36,455 nucleotides of DNA from a virus, in IMG/VR virus record IMGVR_UViG_3300032157_000033, positions 1 through 36,455 of that record, one strand, 5' to 3'. Positions 9,946-36,245 of this stretch are shown in pieces (position 1 is the stretch's first letter; every line of letters starts with the position of its first letter). The notes under the pieces were generated by a model. It ran no database searches, was not told where the DNA came from, and was given only the letters and a program-made list of their open reading frames with translations. The position numbers and the translations under genes were made by a program.

Positions 9946-10251
9946 TCAGCGCAGCGCTGCCGCCGCGTTGTGCGTCGCGATCGACGCGTTGGCCGTCATG
10001 ACCGCCTCGCGCACCTTTCGGATGGCCGCGGTGCGGTCTGGTCCCGGCGGGCACAGGCTCCAGATCGTCCCGGCGAGCACGCGCGCCATCTGGCGGATGC
10101 CCTGGTACGCCTCGACCTGCTCAGGCGTGGGCGGGTGGAACGTGAAGAGGTCGTCGAGCACGCGCTCCGCCTGCTCCGCCGGCGAGAACCCCGCGGGCGA
10201 GACCTCCGTGGTCGTGATGTTCGCGGCTGCTGGTGTGTCTCCCGTAGCCAT
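9946..10251 (-). CDS. Acb2/Tad1-hairpin-like protein, putative anti-CBASS/Thoeris sponge
   Basis: A 101-aa protein from the ATG 10251, with GGAGG at good spacing. Residues 36-95 read FTFHPPTPEQ, AYQGIRQMARVLAG, PPGPDRTAAIRKVREAVMTA, then NASIA. This closely follows the two-helix pattern I know from the Acb2/Tad1 hairpin family: an aromatic-HPP entry, IR..A..LA, P(S/G).DR..A...(R/E)EAVM.ANA.IA. Acb2 proteins bind cyclic di- and trinucleotides made by CBASS and so block the defence; Tad1 binds the Thoeris signal. The first 35 residues are an extra flexible arm. Flanked by unknown genes; gaps of 146 and 100 bp on either side are unusual in this tightly overlapped operon and may hold its own promoter, though none stands out. 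Confidence 0.65.
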   Translation of the reverse strand: MATGDTPAAANITTTEVSPAGFSPAEQAERVLDDLFTFHPPTPEQVEAYQGIRQMARVLAGTIWSLCPPGPDRTAAIRKVREAVMTANASIATHNAAAALR

Positions 10252-10351
10252 CGGGCACCTCCGATTCGGGTTCGTGCTGCGTTCAGCGCGGTACCGGCCG
10301 CCACACCCGACCCCCGTTAGGCGGGCAGGCTCGCCACCGGCACCGCATTCC

Positions 10352-10735
10352 TCAGTGCGCGCGGCCGCGGTCGCCGCGGATGCCACCCTTCGCCAGCGCA
10401 GCGCTCACCTTGTCGAGCGGCGCACTGACCGTCTTCCCCGTCGCGGGGTCCTTCATCGAGACCGTCGCCGCCGTCTCGCCGCGATCGCTCGGCGCCGGCA
10501 GGAGCGCGTCCTGCTGCGAGTCGCGCACGGTGATGCTCACCATCCGGCCGAGGACCAGGTCGCTCCACGCGGCGTCCTTCTCGACGACCAGCACGGCCTT
10601 CGTGTGCTTGTCCGCAGCGGTGGTGGCCGGTGTGATCGAGAGCGCGATCTTCACGAGCTCGAGATCCGGGTAGTCCTTCGGATTGGGCGAGAAGATGGCG
10701 TGGCCGATGACGCGGCCCTGGACCTCGTACTTCAT
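10352..10735 (-). CDS. Hypothetical protein
   Basis: A 127-aa protein beginning MKYEVQGRVIGHAIFSPN, with AGGGGG upstream of the ATG at 10735. It is beta-rich with a regular strand pattern (VKIALSITPA, KAVLVVEKDA, GRMVSITVRDSQ), which would suit an OB or similar barrel, and ends in a basic Gly/Arg tail. A single-strand DNA-binding role would fit next to the nuclease gene, but no family is recognised. ATGA overlap with the nuclease gene. Confidence 0.55.
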   Translation of the reverse strand: MKYEVQGRVIGHAIFSPNPKDYPDLELVKIALSITPATTAADKHTKAVLVVEKDAAWSDLVLGRMVSITVRDSQQDALLPAPSDRGETAATVSMKDPATGKTVSAPLDKVSAALAKGGIRGDRGRAH

Positions 10736-11217
10736 CGGGTTCCCCCTTGAGTGGATTCGGTGCGGGCCACGGGAGCCGACCCCTCGGCCTCCCCGCGCTT
10801 GCGGTTCTCCGTTCCACCCGCACCGAACTGTGTGCGGCCGGTGCCCACGAAGGGCTCCAGCTCGCGGACGTCGCGGACGACCAGGCAGAGAGCGCCGGCC
10901 GCCTCGAACTTCTCGTGCAGCTCGCGCTGCTCGCGGGAACGCCTCGCGCGCCCGCTCTTGATCTCGAGGAGCGCCAGGCGTCCGTCGGGCGGCAGGCACG
11001 CCATGACGTCCGCCATGCCGACCTGGAGCCGGTTGCGGCGCAGCTGGAACGCGCCGCCGGAGATCGGCGCCACGCGCGGCCCGGTGTGGATGGGCGTGGC
11101 AGGGCAGCCCGAGAGCCGTAGGTAGGTCAGGACGGCCGCCTGCAGCTGCTCATGGGCCGCGAGCGAGCCGATGGGCATGCGCCTTAACTGGGCGGCCGTG
11201 ACGCGCTGGGTGCTCAC
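10732..11217 (-). CDS. VRR-NUC-type nuclease
   Basis: A 161-aa protein with GTG start at 11217 (GTGA overlap). The core VGMADVMACLPPDGRLALLEIKSGRARRSREQ contains the PD-(D/E)xK elements: Asp70 and Glu85-Ile-Lys87, followed by the conserved R.S.EQ helix. This matches VRR-NUC proteins, which are common in phages and include Holliday-junction resolvases and structure-specific nucleases. The C-terminal 35 residues are Gly- and Glu-rich and probably disordered. Role: probably recombination or genome processing before packaging. Confidence 0.75.
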   Translation of the reverse strand: MSTQRVTAAQLRRMPIGSLAAHEQLQAAVLTYLRLSGCPATPIHTGPRVAPISGGAFQLRRNRLQVGMADVMACLPPDGRLALLEIKSGRARRSREQRELHEKFEAAGALCLVVRDVRELEPFVGTGRTQFGAGGTENRKRGEAEGSAPVARTESTQGGTR

Positions 11218-31366: not shown

Positions 31367-33424
31367 TTACGCGACCTTGGCCGCCGTGGCCTTGCAGAAC
31401 GACTGGCCGTGGCGCAGCACGACGTCGCCGAGCTGCCAGCTGAAGAACTTCACCAGCCCGCTGCCGGCGGCGGTGTAGGGATCCACCGTGATCTCGATGT
31501 CGCCCCACATGCCCGCGACGACCTCCTGCCAGTTGCCGAACATGAAGCCGTGCTCATCCGCACCGGCGCCCAGGTTGCCGAGGACGTTGTTCGAGGCCAT
31601 GGCGGGGTAGCCGCCGATCTGCCCATCCTCGACACGGCCCGACCAGATGAACGCCGCCCCGGCCGCCGAGGCCATGAGGGTGGCCGCCAGACGGCTCGCG
31701 ATGCCGGGCGTGGTGATGAAGCCCAGCTTGCCCTTCAGGGCATTGGCGTTGCCCAGGGCCGCGATCATGTCCGTGCACTTGACCCACGTCGGCACGACGT
31801 TGGCCATGCCGACCGCGCCGACGTCCGGTGCCACGTAGATGCCGGTGAGCTCGCCGCCGGCGCCCTTGCCGTGGAACGCGCCGCGCTCGAAGGCGGCACC
31901 GTGACCCTCGGCCAGGTCCTGGCGGATCATCTGCTCGGAGTCGAAGGACGACTGGCGCAGCAGCTGCCGCGAGATCTGGCAGCCGCCGGCCATCGTCTTC
32001 GGCGCGAGCGTGACCGTGCCGGTGGCGACGTCGGTCGGGCTGACCGGGCTCGCCGGGTTCTCACCCGGCCAGGTCACCGTGACGGTGCCGGTCTGCTTCG
32101 GGAACGGGATGTTCCCGCCGGAGAGGCCGGAGAGCAGTCGGCCGCCCATGCGGAAGAGGACCGAGGCGTTCCGGAGGAACTCGATCAGCTCGCCGGGCTG
32201 GTCGAAGACGAGCTCGGCGCCCTTCGCCGCCTGGTTCGTCGTCATGGTGCGGCGCTCGATGTCGCCACCCATGCTGACGGGCAGGATGATGCCGCCCTGC
32301 GTCTGGATCCCGGAGTCGCGCTGGCGCTTCTCCAGGTGCTGGTGCACCTCGCCCTCGACGCCGTCGAACGTGGTGCCGTTCGCCACGCGCCGGCACAGCA
32401 TGTCCAGGGCGCGCGAGACGGAGTAGCGCTTCCGGTCCTTCGCCTTCAGGCCATCGAGGATCTCGGCGGCCGTGCCATTCGTCGGCACGCTCCTGCGCTC
32501 GCGCAGGATCTCGAGGCCGGCGTCCTTCAACGAGACGCCCCGCTCGATGAACTCGGCCGCGCGGTGTGCGACACCGTTCGACTCGCACAGCCGCACGAGC
32601 TCGGCGATCTCCTTGTTGCGGTCCGGGGGGGCACCGCCACCGTTCAGCGATCGCGTATCGACGCCGCCCGGAGCGGGGACCTCGGGGCTGGTCGCGGTGG
32701 CGCCAGCCGGGGGGGCTTCCTTGTTCGGCTCCATCTTGGGTTCCTCCGCTGCGGGGTTATCCGACTCCAGCTCGACGGGGTACTCGACCGAGCCCCCTGC
32801 CGAACGTCCGACCTTCGCGTTGGGATCCGCTGGAATGCTCACAATCGAGCCCTCCACCGGGGTCCAGCGTGTGACCAGGTACTCTTCCTTCTCCCCATTG
32901 GGGCCGGCGGGCTTCACCAGCTTCCACTTGCGCTTGATGTACCCGACCGAGATGAAGCGCCGGGTGCGGTCGTTCACGTCGCGCTCGATCTCCTGCGCCA
33001 GGGCGCTCTTCGAGAAGCGCAGCGCGCCCTTGAGCTTCGTGTCGTCGACGGTCGCGACCTCCTCGATCACGCCGACGTGCAGGAGCGGGTCGATGATCCC
33101 GGCCGCCATCTGGTCGAGGTTCCGCACGCCGTGCTCCAGGAGCAGCGAGAGCCCACTGCGCGCGTACGACATGTCGACGGCGCTCTTCTTGTGGCTCAGC
33201 GTCTCGATGCACCAGGACTTCTCGACCGGGTGCTCGGTGCTGAGGATGACGTCGTAGACGACGTCCTCACCGGCGGTCTCACCGTCGGCGCCAGCCAGCG
33301 CGCGCACGCGGCGGGTGCACTCGAGGATCGAGTACGTCACCACCTGGATCGGGAAGCTCTTCTGCTGGGCTTCCTGCTTCGCGCTCATCCGCGGGGTCCT
33401 CGCGTCCGGTTCGACTGCCATCAC
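31367..33424 (-). CDS. Fused prohead protease and major capsid protein (HK97 type)
   Basis: A 685-aa protein. Residues 20-215 are an HK97-type prohead protease: LLLEHGVRN with the catalytic His (98), RRFISVGYI with the Ser (159), and PVEGSIVSIPADPNAKVG, the family strand. A Glu/Pro/Ala/Gly linker (about 215-270) leads to a helical scaffold-like segment, then the capsid from about 380 to 685 (NIPFPKQTGTVTVTWPGENP, DLAEGHGAAFERGAFHGKGA). GTG at 33424 and ATG at 33421 start the frame; ATG at 33388 with GAGG upstream is an alternative. Self-cleavage would release the capsid during maturation. Such fusions are known but less common than separate genes. Confidence 0.9.
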   Translation of the reverse strand: MMAVEPDARTPRMSAKQEAQQKSFPIQVVTYSILECTRRVRALAGADGETAGEDVVYDVILSTEHPVEKSWCIETLSHKKSAVDMSYARSGLSLLLEHGVRNLDQMAAGIIDPLLHVGVIEEVATVDDTKLKGALRFSKSALAQEIERDVNDRTRRFISVGYIKRKWKLVKPAGPNGEKEEYLVTRWTPVEGSIVSIPADPNAKVGRSAGGSVEYPVELESDNPAAEEPKMEPNKEAPPAGATATSPEVPAPGGVDTRSLNGGGAPPDRNKEIAELVRLCESNGVAHRAAEFIERGVSLKDAGLEILRERRSVPTNGTAAEILDGLKAKDRKRYSVSRALDMLCRRVANGTTFDGVEGEVHQHLEKRQRDSGIQTQGGIILPVSMGGDIERRTMTTNQAAKGAELVFDQPGELIEFLRNASVLFRMGGRLLSGLSGGNIPFPKQTGTVTVTWPGENPASPVSPTDVATGTVTLAPKTMAGGCQISRQLLRQSSFDSEQMIRQDLAEGHGAAFERGAFHGKGAGGELTGIYVAPDVGAVGMANVVPTWVKCTDMIAALGNANALKGKLGFITTPGIASRLAATLMASAAGAAFIWSGRVEDGQIGGYPAMASNNVLGNLGAGADEHGFMFGNWQEVVAGMWGDIEITVDPYTAAGSGLVKFFSWQLGDVVLRHGQSFCKATAAKVA

Positions 33425-33556
33425 CGGCCGGAGCCACTCGCGGGATGCCCGCGCGCTCCGACCTCACGGGCGTGACCTTGTGCGAGGCGAGAGCGCTGAC
33501 GCCATTACAGAATAACTTGAATGTTCCCCGCCCCCTCCGATGTGCATGCTGCGCGC
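33425..33556. promoter_or_regulatory. Divergent intergenic region, likely late promoters
   Basis: This 132-bp gap separates the leftward protease-capsid gene from the rightward joiner-portal genes. It includes an AT-rich patch (33505-33530, ATTACAGAATAACTTGAATG) that stands out from the GC-rich genome, and a minus-strand TGTAAT that could be a -10. No convincing -35 partner is visible for either direction, so a phage activator may be needed. Confidence 0.4.
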
Positions 33557-34093
33557 ATGCCGAATCTCAGCGCGCTGCCCGATACGATTACGAACGGGAC
33601 CTACGTCGCCTACACGAAGGCGTTCGCCGACTACCCCGCGAACGCGGGCTGGTCGATGGCGCTCCACATCGCGGGCAAGTCGAAGCTCTCAAAGAACGCG
33701 GTCACGAGCGGAGCGTCCTTCGTCGTGACGCTGGCCACCTCGGACACGGACGACCTCGAGCCCGGGCAGTACCAGTGGGTCGAGCGCGTCACCAATGGTG
33801 CGGAGGTCTACGACGCCGCCTGCGGGCAGCTGATCGTGAAGCCAAACCTCGCGACGGCCGCCCCAGGCGCACTGCAGACGTGGGAGGAGAAGACGCTGGC
33901 CGTTGTCGAGGCCGCGCTCTCCGGCAGCCTCACGAGTGACATCGAGACCTACCAGATCCACGGCCGGTCCGTCTCGCGGATGAGCCGCAGCGAGCTGCTG
34001 CGCATCCGGAACGCGCTCAAGGTGAGCATCCAGCGCCAGAGGAACGGCGGCAGGATCGGCCAGAACTTCCGCACGCGCTTCACGAGGTCCTAG
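33557..34093 (+). CDS. Head-tail connector candidate with gpW-like C-terminus
   Basis: A 178-aa protein. The start at ATG 33557 gives MPNLSALPDTITNGTYVAY; the frame is open from an ATG at 33521 as well. Residues 1-90 are a beta domain (GASFVVTLATSDTDDLEPGQ, YQWVERVTNG). Residues 110-170 read like gpW: SDIETYQIHGRSVSRMSRSE, then LLRIRNALKVSIQRQ. Lambda W joins the portal ring to the tail and lies directly before the portal gene B, as here. The N-terminal domain is an addition relative to the 68-aa lambda W. Confidence 0.55.
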   Translation: MPNLSALPDTITNGTYVAYTKAFADYPANAGWSMALHIAGKSKLSKNAVTSGASFVVTLATSDTDDLEPGQYQWVERVTNGAEVYDAACGQLIVKPNLATAAPGALQTWEEKTLAVVEAALSGSLTSDIETYQIHGRSVSRMSRSELLRIRNALKVSIQRQRNGGRIGQNFRTRFTRS

Positions 34094-34096
34094 ATC

Positions 34097-35746
34097 ATGG
34101 CGAAACTCCCGTTGTTCCAGCGCGCGATGGCGGCTTGGAAGGTCCTGAGCTCGGCCGAGCAGGCGGGGCGCGCCGGTGGTCACCGACCCACCCGCACCGT
34201 GCGCAGTGTCTACCGAGGGGCCGAGACCTCGCGGCTCTTCGGCGACTTCAACCCGCGCACCCAGCCGCCGGTCGAGGAGCTGCGCGGCGCACTGCGCACC
34301 CTGCGCGCGCGCGCGCGCGACCTCGGGCGCAACGAGGGCCTCGCAACCCAGTTCATCCGCCTGGCCACCACCAACGTGCTGGGCCCGCGCGGGATGCGTC
34401 TGCAGGCTCAGGTCCGTGACGCGAGCGGCAACCTGGACGAGCGCGCGAACGCGGTGATCGAGGCCGCCTGGAACCGGTGGCGCGCCCAGCGGGTGTCCAT
34501 CGACCGCCGAATGACGTTCTCGGCCTTCGAGCGCCTGTCCTTCCGCACGGCGATCACCGACGGCGAGACCTTCATCCGCCCGATCGTCGGCCCCGACGAA
34601 CCGCACGGCCTGTCGCTCCAGGGGCTGGACGCGGACGTGATCGACGACCGGCTGTCCACGTCGTTCCCCGTCGAGGGGAGCGAGGTCTGGCTGGGCGTCG
34701 AGGTGGACGGTGTGGGCCGCCCGCTCGCCTACCACGTCATGGAAGGCCTCTACTCGAACGCGTTCTACAGCCGGCAGACGGTGCGCGTGCCCGCGAGCGA
34801 GGTGCTCCACGCCTACATCTCGGAGCGCTTCAACCAGGCGCGCGGCATCTCGTGGTTCGCGCCGGCGATCGTGCCCGGGCAGCACCTGAACGGCTTCATC
34901 GAGGCGGTGCTCGTGGGGGCGCGCGCCGGCGCCGGGCAGATGGCATTCGTCGAGCAGACCGACGAGTCCCTTGCCGGCGCCGACGAGAGCCCCGACGGCG
35001 GCGCGGAGCCGGTCGAGACCGAGATCGAACCCGGCACGATTACGCGCCTGGCACCGGGCGAGAAACTCTCGGCGTTCACGCCGAGCCAGCCCTCCGACGC
35101 GTTCACCGACTTCACCAAGGACATCAAGCGCCACGTGGCGGCCTGCCTGGGTGTCAACTACGCCCAGCTGGCGAGTGACTACGCCGAGGCAAACTACTCG
35201 AGCATGCGCGCGGCCCAGCTCGTGGACCGCGACCTCTGGCGCGCGCTGCAGATCTGGTGGATCGAGGCCTTCCTGCAGCCGATCTTCGAACGCTGGCTGC
35301 AGGCGGCGATGCTCGCCGGCGAGCTGCCGCTGGACGGCCGCGACTGGCGCCGCTACACCGCGCACCGCTGGATCCCGCGCGGCTGGCCGTGGGTCGACCC
35401 GCTGAAGGACGTGCAGGCGTCCGAGATGGAGCTCGATCTGGGGCTCACCTCGGTTACGCGGATCCTCGCGGAGCGCGGCGAGGACATCGAGGACATCCTC
35501 GAGGAGCGTCGCGACGAGCAGCTGCTCGCGAAGCGCTACGGGCAGGACCTCCAGCGCGTGGCGAAAGCACCGAAGCCGGCGCCGCCGGACGAAGAGCAGG
35601 ACGACGACGAGGGCCAGGACGAGGAGGCCGGCGATGAGGCCGGCACGCGCCGCGCCGGTCCACGCGAGTCACTGCCCGCGGCGGTTGCCGCTCGAGTCAA
35701 CGGTCACGCCGGCGCCGCGCCGGCCCGCAACGGCAAGTCGCACTGA
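34097..35746 (+). CDS. Portal protein, lambda B family
   Basis: A 549-aa portal that starts 4 bp after the connector stop. Typical family elements are visible: ARDLGRNEGLATQFIRLATT near residue 74, FSAFERLSFRTAITDGETFI, SEVLHAYISERFNQARGISW, LGVNYAQLASDYAEANYSSM and VDPLKDVQASEMELDLGLTS near residue 435. It forms the dodecameric ring through which the terminase pumps DNA. The last 60 residues are acidic then basic and likely disordered. It pairs well with the GpA terminase, but lies on the opposite strand and almost half a genome unit away from it in linear order. Confidence 0.95.
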   Translation: MAKLPLFQRAMAAWKVLSSAEQAGRAGGHRPTRTVRSVYRGAETSRLFGDFNPRTQPPVEELRGALRTLRARARDLGRNEGLATQFIRLATTNVLGPRGMRLQAQVRDASGNLDERANAVIEAAWNRWRAQRVSIDRRMTFSAFERLSFRTAITDGETFIRPIVGPDEPHGLSLQGLDADVIDDRLSTSFPVEGSEVWLGVEVDGVGRPLAYHVMEGLYSNAFYSRQTVRVPASEVLHAYISERFNQARGISWFAPAIVPGQHLNGFIEAVLVGARAGAGQMAFVEQTDESLAGADESPDGGAEPVETEIEPGTITRLAPGEKLSAFTPSQPSDAFTDFTKDIKRHVAACLGVNYAQLASDYAEANYSSMRAAQLVDRDLWRALQIWWIEAFLQPIFERWLQAAMLAGELPLDGRDWRRYTAHRWIPRGWPWVDPLKDVQASEMELDLGLTSVTRILAERGEDIEDILEERRDEQLLAKRYGQDLQRVAKAPKPAPPDEEQDDDEGQDEEAGDEAGTRRAGPRESLPAAVAARVNGHAGAAPARNGKSH

Positions 35747-35786
35747 CCGCGCGGCGCCGGGCGCCGTCAACCGTAGGGAGGGAAGC

Positions 35787-36245
35787 ATGGGCTTCTTCAT
35801 GAAGAAGTATCCGAACGTCCTCACCGGGGCGTTCACGGCATCACAGGTGCGCGATTCGCTCGCGGTCCCCTGCCGGGGTGCGATCATGGTCGTCCAGCGA
35901 CTTCGCTCGGGTGCGAACGAGTCGGCCGCGGCGATCGCGTTCAAGGTCGGCAACCTCGCCAGCGGTACGTTCGTGAGCACCGCTGGACAAGGTTTCACGC
36001 AGCGGGGCACCGCGCCGGTCACGCTGCAGCAGGCGAACGGGCAGACCGTGGCGCTCTACTGCGGCGACCAGACGCTGGGAGCGGCGTTCTTGCCGTTCTT
36101 CATGGACTTCGTGGTCGCGTCGATCACCGCGCCGGGAGGAGGGCTCGCGTCCACGTTCGGGCTCGACCTCGAGGTCTGGTACGACAGCGACCCGGACATG
36201 GCGGTGCTGGCGCAGGTCAACCAGTCGAGCTACACGCCGGCCTGA
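35787..36245 (+). CDS. Small putative virion protein
   Basis: A 152-aa protein; AGGGAGGGAAGC lies before the ATG at 35787. It is beta-rich: SLAVPCRGAIMVVQRLRSG, SAAAIAFKVGNLASGTFVS, TVALYCGDQTLGAAFLPFF, LDLEVWYDSDPDM. No signal peptide or membrane helix. It ends the plus-strand operon after the portal. A head-decoration or neck role is possible; no family recognised. Confidence 0.5.
   Translation: MGFFMKKYPNVLTGAFTASQVRDSLAVPCRGAIMVVQRLRSGANESAAAIAFKVGNLASGTFVSTAGQGFTQRGTAPVTLQQANGQTVALYCGDQTLGAAFLPFFMDFVVASITAPGGGLASTFGLDLEVWYDSDPDMAVLAQVNQSSYTPA

Follow-up and report, generated by a model that had tools for sequence, protein, structure and literature searches.

The window, an IMG/VR record taken entire as a single linear contig of 36,455 bases, encodes on its minus strand a protein of 101 amino acids that belongs, with near certainty, to the Acb2/Tad1 hairpin superfamily. 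The protein probably acts as a stand-alone nucleotide sponge of the short-hairpin form, directed against CBASS-type cyclic oligonucleotides or Thoeris signals. Members of the Acb2/Tad1 family in other phages mop up the nucleotide alarm signals that trigger suicide of infected bacteria, and inhibition of cyclic-nucleotide defence would be the natural reading by homology for the hairpin protein described here. The gene and the features of its product are as follows.

9946 to 10251, minus strand: coding sequence of the Acb2/Tad1 hairpin-domain protein (short form), 101 amino acids plus stop; open reading frame with matches to PF24729 and phrog_1454
10257 to 10262, minus strand: Shine-Dalgarno sequence GGAGGT, 5 bases 5' of the ATG at 10251
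10147 to 10251, minus strand: N-terminal arm, residues 1-35, comprising approximately 23 residues of low-confidence coil followed by helix 24-35 (AlphaFold2 model)
9976 to 10146, minus strand: hairpin core, residues 36-92 (helices 43-66 and 71-92); PF24729 at residues 37-92, AlphaFold2 pLDDT 93-99 over most of the core
10138 to 10140, minus strand: Phe38, aligned with Tyr8 of T4 Acb2 (alignment A3)
10093 to 10095, minus strand: Arg53, aligned with Lys23 of T4 Acb2 (alignment A3)

The hairpin gene is real. Its start and frame are convincing, since GGAGGT lies 5 bases before the ATG and the G+C content at codon positions 1, 2 and 3 is 0.67, 0.58 and 0.89 respectively, a strong bias of the coding type. 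The limits and the 101-residue product given by the initial annotation of this DNA were exact; the strand, which had not been stated, is minus. The sequence motifs on which that annotation relied were also found in the protein, as FTFHPP, IRQMARVLA and PDRTAAIRKVREAVMTANASIA.

Searches of Pfam-A with the 101 amino acid protein yielded a sole match, to PF24729 (Acb2_Tad1_hairpin), spanning residues 37-92 and profile positions 1-57 of 58. The score of 48.3 bits (E 1.2e-12) exceeds the gathering cut-off of 27 bits, and none of 14 control genomes produced a match above this cut-off; the resemblance is therefore far above chance. The hairpin protein was alone in the record in matching PF24729. The same profile was matched by all 53 aligned relatives and, at 71.4 bits, by T4 Vs.4, an experimentally established Acb2. 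Comparison with the PHROGs gave phrog_1454 (E 3.9e-16), a family without an assigned function, and searches of PADLOC and NCBIfam with the hairpin protein gave no match.

An AlphaFold2 model built from the 53-sequence alignment had a mean pLDDT of 90 and comprised helices at residues 24-35, 43-66 and 71-92, with no strands. The helices are arranged as a short helix followed by two antiparallel helices, the latter pair at a pLDDT of approximately 97-99, a layout equivalent to that described for the Acb2 protomer (PMC12043709). A helical hairpin had been proposed as the structural check on the family assignment, and it was predicted with confidence. Foldseek yielded no significant match in the PDB (E 4.8). 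When its PDB candidates were compared using VIA-align, the first rank was occupied by 7uq2_A (T4 Vs.4 with cGAMP) with a Z score of 7.3 over 59 residues and an rmsd of 2.8; the margin is small, however, as unrelated helical hairpins attain similar values, the next row standing at 7.1. The entry 9ptq, discussed below, was missing from the Foldseek PDB list, which was not counted as evidence against the assignment. Against viral models (BFVD), 12 of the top 13 matches and at least 15 of the top 18 bore the UniProt name 'Acb2/Tad1 hairpin', the 13th being without a name at hand, and matches to the same family were returned at a probability of 1.00. Pfam, the predicted fold and the structural neighbours together give good support to the assignment to the Acb2/Tad1 hairpin family made initially.

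Sequence comparison alone connected the protein only weakly to Acb2 proper. A profile of the 53 close relatives (A1) retrieved no Acb2 or Tad1 chain from the PDB, and hhalign comparison of the window's family with the T4-like Acb2 family gave a probability of 0.8%, that is, no direct profile-profile match. The link therefore rests on Pfam, on intermediates and on the fold. A bridge to CHARACTERISED proteins was provided by a profile of the window's family and other short relatives, prepared without T4-like Acb2, for which the best PDB match was 'Acb2 homolog 43' (9ptq) at E 0.0019, aligned over 57 profile positions without gaps. With T4-like members added, the profile matched PaMx33-type Acb2 at E 1.4e-6 and, weakly, Tad1 chains at E 0.014-0.05. 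A single-sequence phmmer search of the PDB returned only TALE-repeat and other low-quality matches, which were dismissed as repeat-driven noise.

Phe38 and Arg53 occupy the positions of Tyr8 and Lys23 in T4 Acb2, the equivalents of which in PaMx33 Acb2, Y11 and K26, we take to contact cGAMP. An aromatic residue at the Tyr8 position, as expected of Acb2 in the narrow sense, is thus present as Phe38; among the 53 relatives the position is held by Tyr (48), His (3) or Phe (2). The basic position is Arg in 53 of 53 relatives (A1) and Lys in 21 of 21 T4-like Acb2 proteins. The Y8A variant of T4 Acb2 shows disrupted binding of cyclic dinucleotides, and Phe82 of T4 Acb2 makes a stacking contact with the ligand (PMC12657218). 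Phe82 aligns with Ala92 here, and as PaMx33 Acb2 likewise has Ala at the aligned place, this residue is not family-defining. D72, R78 and R81 are invariant in the relatives, whereas the aligned T4 positions differ. The sequence EAVMTANA (residues 82-89) is carried by 52 of 53 relatives; because it was used as the scan seed, its invariance is in part an artefact and was not taken as evidence.

If the protein functions as proposed, it would assemble early in infection as a small helical oligomer, probably a hexamer, in which pockets between protomers would hold the cyclic di- or trinucleotides of host CBASS or possibly the cADPR isomers of Thoeris. Phe38, as the aromatic entry residue, and the basic Arg53 would be used to hold the messenger, which would be sequestered without cleavage so that the suicide effectors stay off. 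The expected outcome would be an anti-CBASS or anti-Thoeris effect.

The 35 residues that precede the invariant Phe36 form the longest such segment among the 53 relatives (range 6-35, median 10). An extra arm of 35 residues had been reported for this protein; 35 residues do precede Phe36, but only about 25 of these are extra, the remaining 10 or so representing the ordinary short first helix. Residues 1-20 were modelled at a pLDDT of approximately 70. The arm is rich in Ala, Thr and Pro, is not conserved and differs even from the arms of syntenic relatives; on the basis of the low confidence, the composition and this lack of conservation, its interpretation as a separate or new domain was rejected. 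The long arm is probably a flexible, variable tail.

The genomic surroundings of the hairpin gene include the following features, where L002 and L003 denote two metagenomic relatives.

10732 to 11217, minus strand: gene resembling endonucleases and Holliday-junction resolvases, upstream in the same block; phrog_93 (E 2.2e-9) and phrog_5702 (E 5.1e-7)
10352 to 10735, minus strand: gene directly upstream, without a Pfam or PHROG match, conserved in L002 and L003
9095 to 9799, minus strand: gene directly downstream, without a Pfam or PHROG match, conserved in L002 and L003
8384 to 8623, minus strand: CsrA-family gene (PF02599, 76 bits), in the same block in L002 and L003
13465 to 15084 and 16804 to 17637, minus strand: ParB-like protein and tyrosine integrase
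31367 to 33424, minus strand: major head protein of 685 amino acids, matching PHROGs of head proteins and of head maturation proteases
33521 to 36245, plus strand: portal block, the terminase and capsid genes being on the minus strand

The block is colinear in L002 and L003, in the order endonuclease, unknown, hairpin gene, two unknowns and CsrA-like gene. The CsrA-family protein is a phage-borne homologue of a host translational regulator. Across 61 diverse loci no constant partner gene was found, and no neighbour family occurred in more than five; this suits a gene that travels alone among many unrelated phages, as a counter-defence gene would be expected to do, without amounting to proof. 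The ParB-like protein and integrase suggest a temperate or plasmid-like lifestyle. The record also encodes head and packaging genes, identified by PHROG matches, among which the head protein of 685 amino acids is apparently a protease-capsid fusion. In the relative L056 the terminase, portal block and capsid all lie on one strand; the portal block therefore looks inverted in the window, whether through a true inversion or an assembly artefact.

The 101 amino acid protein adds one more to a family that is widespread and has already been named. A scan of IMG/VR using one protein as the query found relatives in viral contigs, at least 147 in number, and a further 11 were found in bacterial genome contigs, mostly MAG contigs, of widely different phyla. 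Relatives in named phages, which include those of Gordonia, Paenibacillus, Lactococcus, Brevibacillus and Tunturiibacter, are mostly annotated as hypothetical, and similar actinobacteriophage genes have already been called Acb2 or CBASS antagonist (PMC13348362; PMC11953737). In two Gordonia phages (L084, 2076-2288; L101, 1995-2207) the hairpin gene is flanked on one side by the portal gene and on the other by a pair of genes for an RNA ligase and an ADP-ribosyltransferase, which is an unusual location for a counter-defence gene. Cyanophage S-2L contains a stretch (L100, 2001-2249) matching the hairpin protein with 35% identity over 83 residues, located directly after a tail gene, with which it overlaps in part, and no gene of its own is annotated there.

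Helical hairpins are common and the structural scores obtained against the PDB were modest, which would be compatible with chance similarity of a generic hairpin unrelated to Acb2/Tad1. Such an origin is, however, highly improbable, having been largely refuted already by a Pfam match well above the cut-off (E 1.2e-12) that no control genome equalled, by the inclusion of every aligned relative in PF24729 and by viral-model Foldseek matches specific to this family. Alternatively, the protein might share the fold and ancestry of the sponges and yet serve the phage replication/packaging block as an adaptor, whether structural or regulatory, a role that would fit the conserved gene block with its nuclease and the position of the hairpin gene ahead of the terminase in some relatives. 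The lack of a recurring partner over the 61 loci suits a self-contained protein instead, and the ligand-site positions have been kept; we regard an adaptor as distinctly unlikely.

A sponge for a ligand outside the tested CBASS and Thoeris sets, such as some other nucleotide of host or phage, is also an unlikely explanation, in which the short hairpin and a conserved face composed of R78, R81, E82 and N88 would mark a different pocket. The fixed length of the short hairpin, the invariance of R78, R81 and D72 at positions that differ in T4, and the missing equivalent of the T4 stacking residue Phe82 all argue for such a ligand, but the aromatic and basic T4-equivalent positions are kept, a short-form protein, Acb2 homolog 43, has been investigated as a homologue of Acb2, and part of the invariance (residues 82-89) was built in by the scan seed. 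It is a speculative extension, to which little weight can be given, that the short-hairpin branch (PHROG 1454 type) might constitute a large separate class of sponges, with a ligand set unlike that of T4/PaMx33 Acb2 or Tad1, a distinct pocket formed by the conserved Arg78/Arg81/Asn88 helix face, and, in this phage, the long arm tuning binding or assembly.

The preferred reading is that of a stand-alone sponge for CBASS or Thoeris messengers. If this is true, an uncharacterised and divergent phage joins those with counter-defence sponges, and attention is drawn to the common short-hairpin branch, the ligands of which are apparently little studied. On its own, the hairpin gene is an ordinary family member. 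Work on Panoptes has demonstrated that carriage of a sponge can also come at a cost to the phage (PMC12657218), which makes ligand choice in the short-hairpin branch a real question.

Among characterised proteins, T4 Acb2 (Vs.4, 7uq2) shares with the window protein the PF24729 domain and the aromatic (Tyr8/Phe38) and basic (Lys23/Arg53) positions, and ranked first, by the small margin given above, in the structural comparison with the PDB. Identity between the two is only about 22%, T4 Phe82 is replaced by Ala92, and T4 Acb2 is without the 35-residue N-terminal arm. The stretch from the aromatic residue to the C-terminal end of the hairpin (positions 38 to 92) comprises 55 residues here and 55-56 in the 53 relatives, as against 75 in T4 Acb2 and 74-82 among T4-like Acb2 proteins. 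Because the hairpin is thus shorter by approximately 20 residues, the protein was kept apart from Acb2 in its narrow sense (T4 Vs.4 / PaMx33 type). Acb2 of Pseudomonas phages (p26, 8h2j/8ixz) was matched by the joint profile (E 1.4e-6) and likewise has a short N-terminal segment and two long helices, but its hairpin stretch is of about 78 residues and it was out of reach of the window family's own profile.

In Tad1, an N-terminal antiparallel beta-sheet domain precedes the hairpin (PMC12043709). Tad1 was rejected as an identity for the window protein since the AlphaFold2 model is without such a domain or any strand, residues 1-23 being coil and 24-35 helix. The second hairpin helix of Tad1 (7uav, 8kbe and others), NACALTHVEEALMWMN, nevertheless resembles TAAIRKVREAVMTAN here, with a weak profile match (E 0.014). 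The PHROG 1454 proteins and those named 'Acb2/Tad1 hairpin domain-containing' in UniProt (Lactococcus 1706, Bacillus BCD7, Mycobacterium Phabba and others) are of the same family and fold, although identity to the window protein is only about 25-46% and, in those included in the alignments, the N-terminal arm is shorter or different. The initial annotation placed the phage far from the characterised examples; the protein itself is not remote from all of these, as UniProt already so names many relatives and the structure of a short-form member, Acb2 homolog 43 (9ptq, 76 amino acids), has been solved. Sequence similarity between this protein and the window's family is low, and in the profile alignment it has Thr where the family has Tyr or Phe. 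It is nonetheless the closest solved relative by sequence, its PDB entry contains six chains, as a hexamer would give, and the window protein is, like it, of the short-hairpin form.
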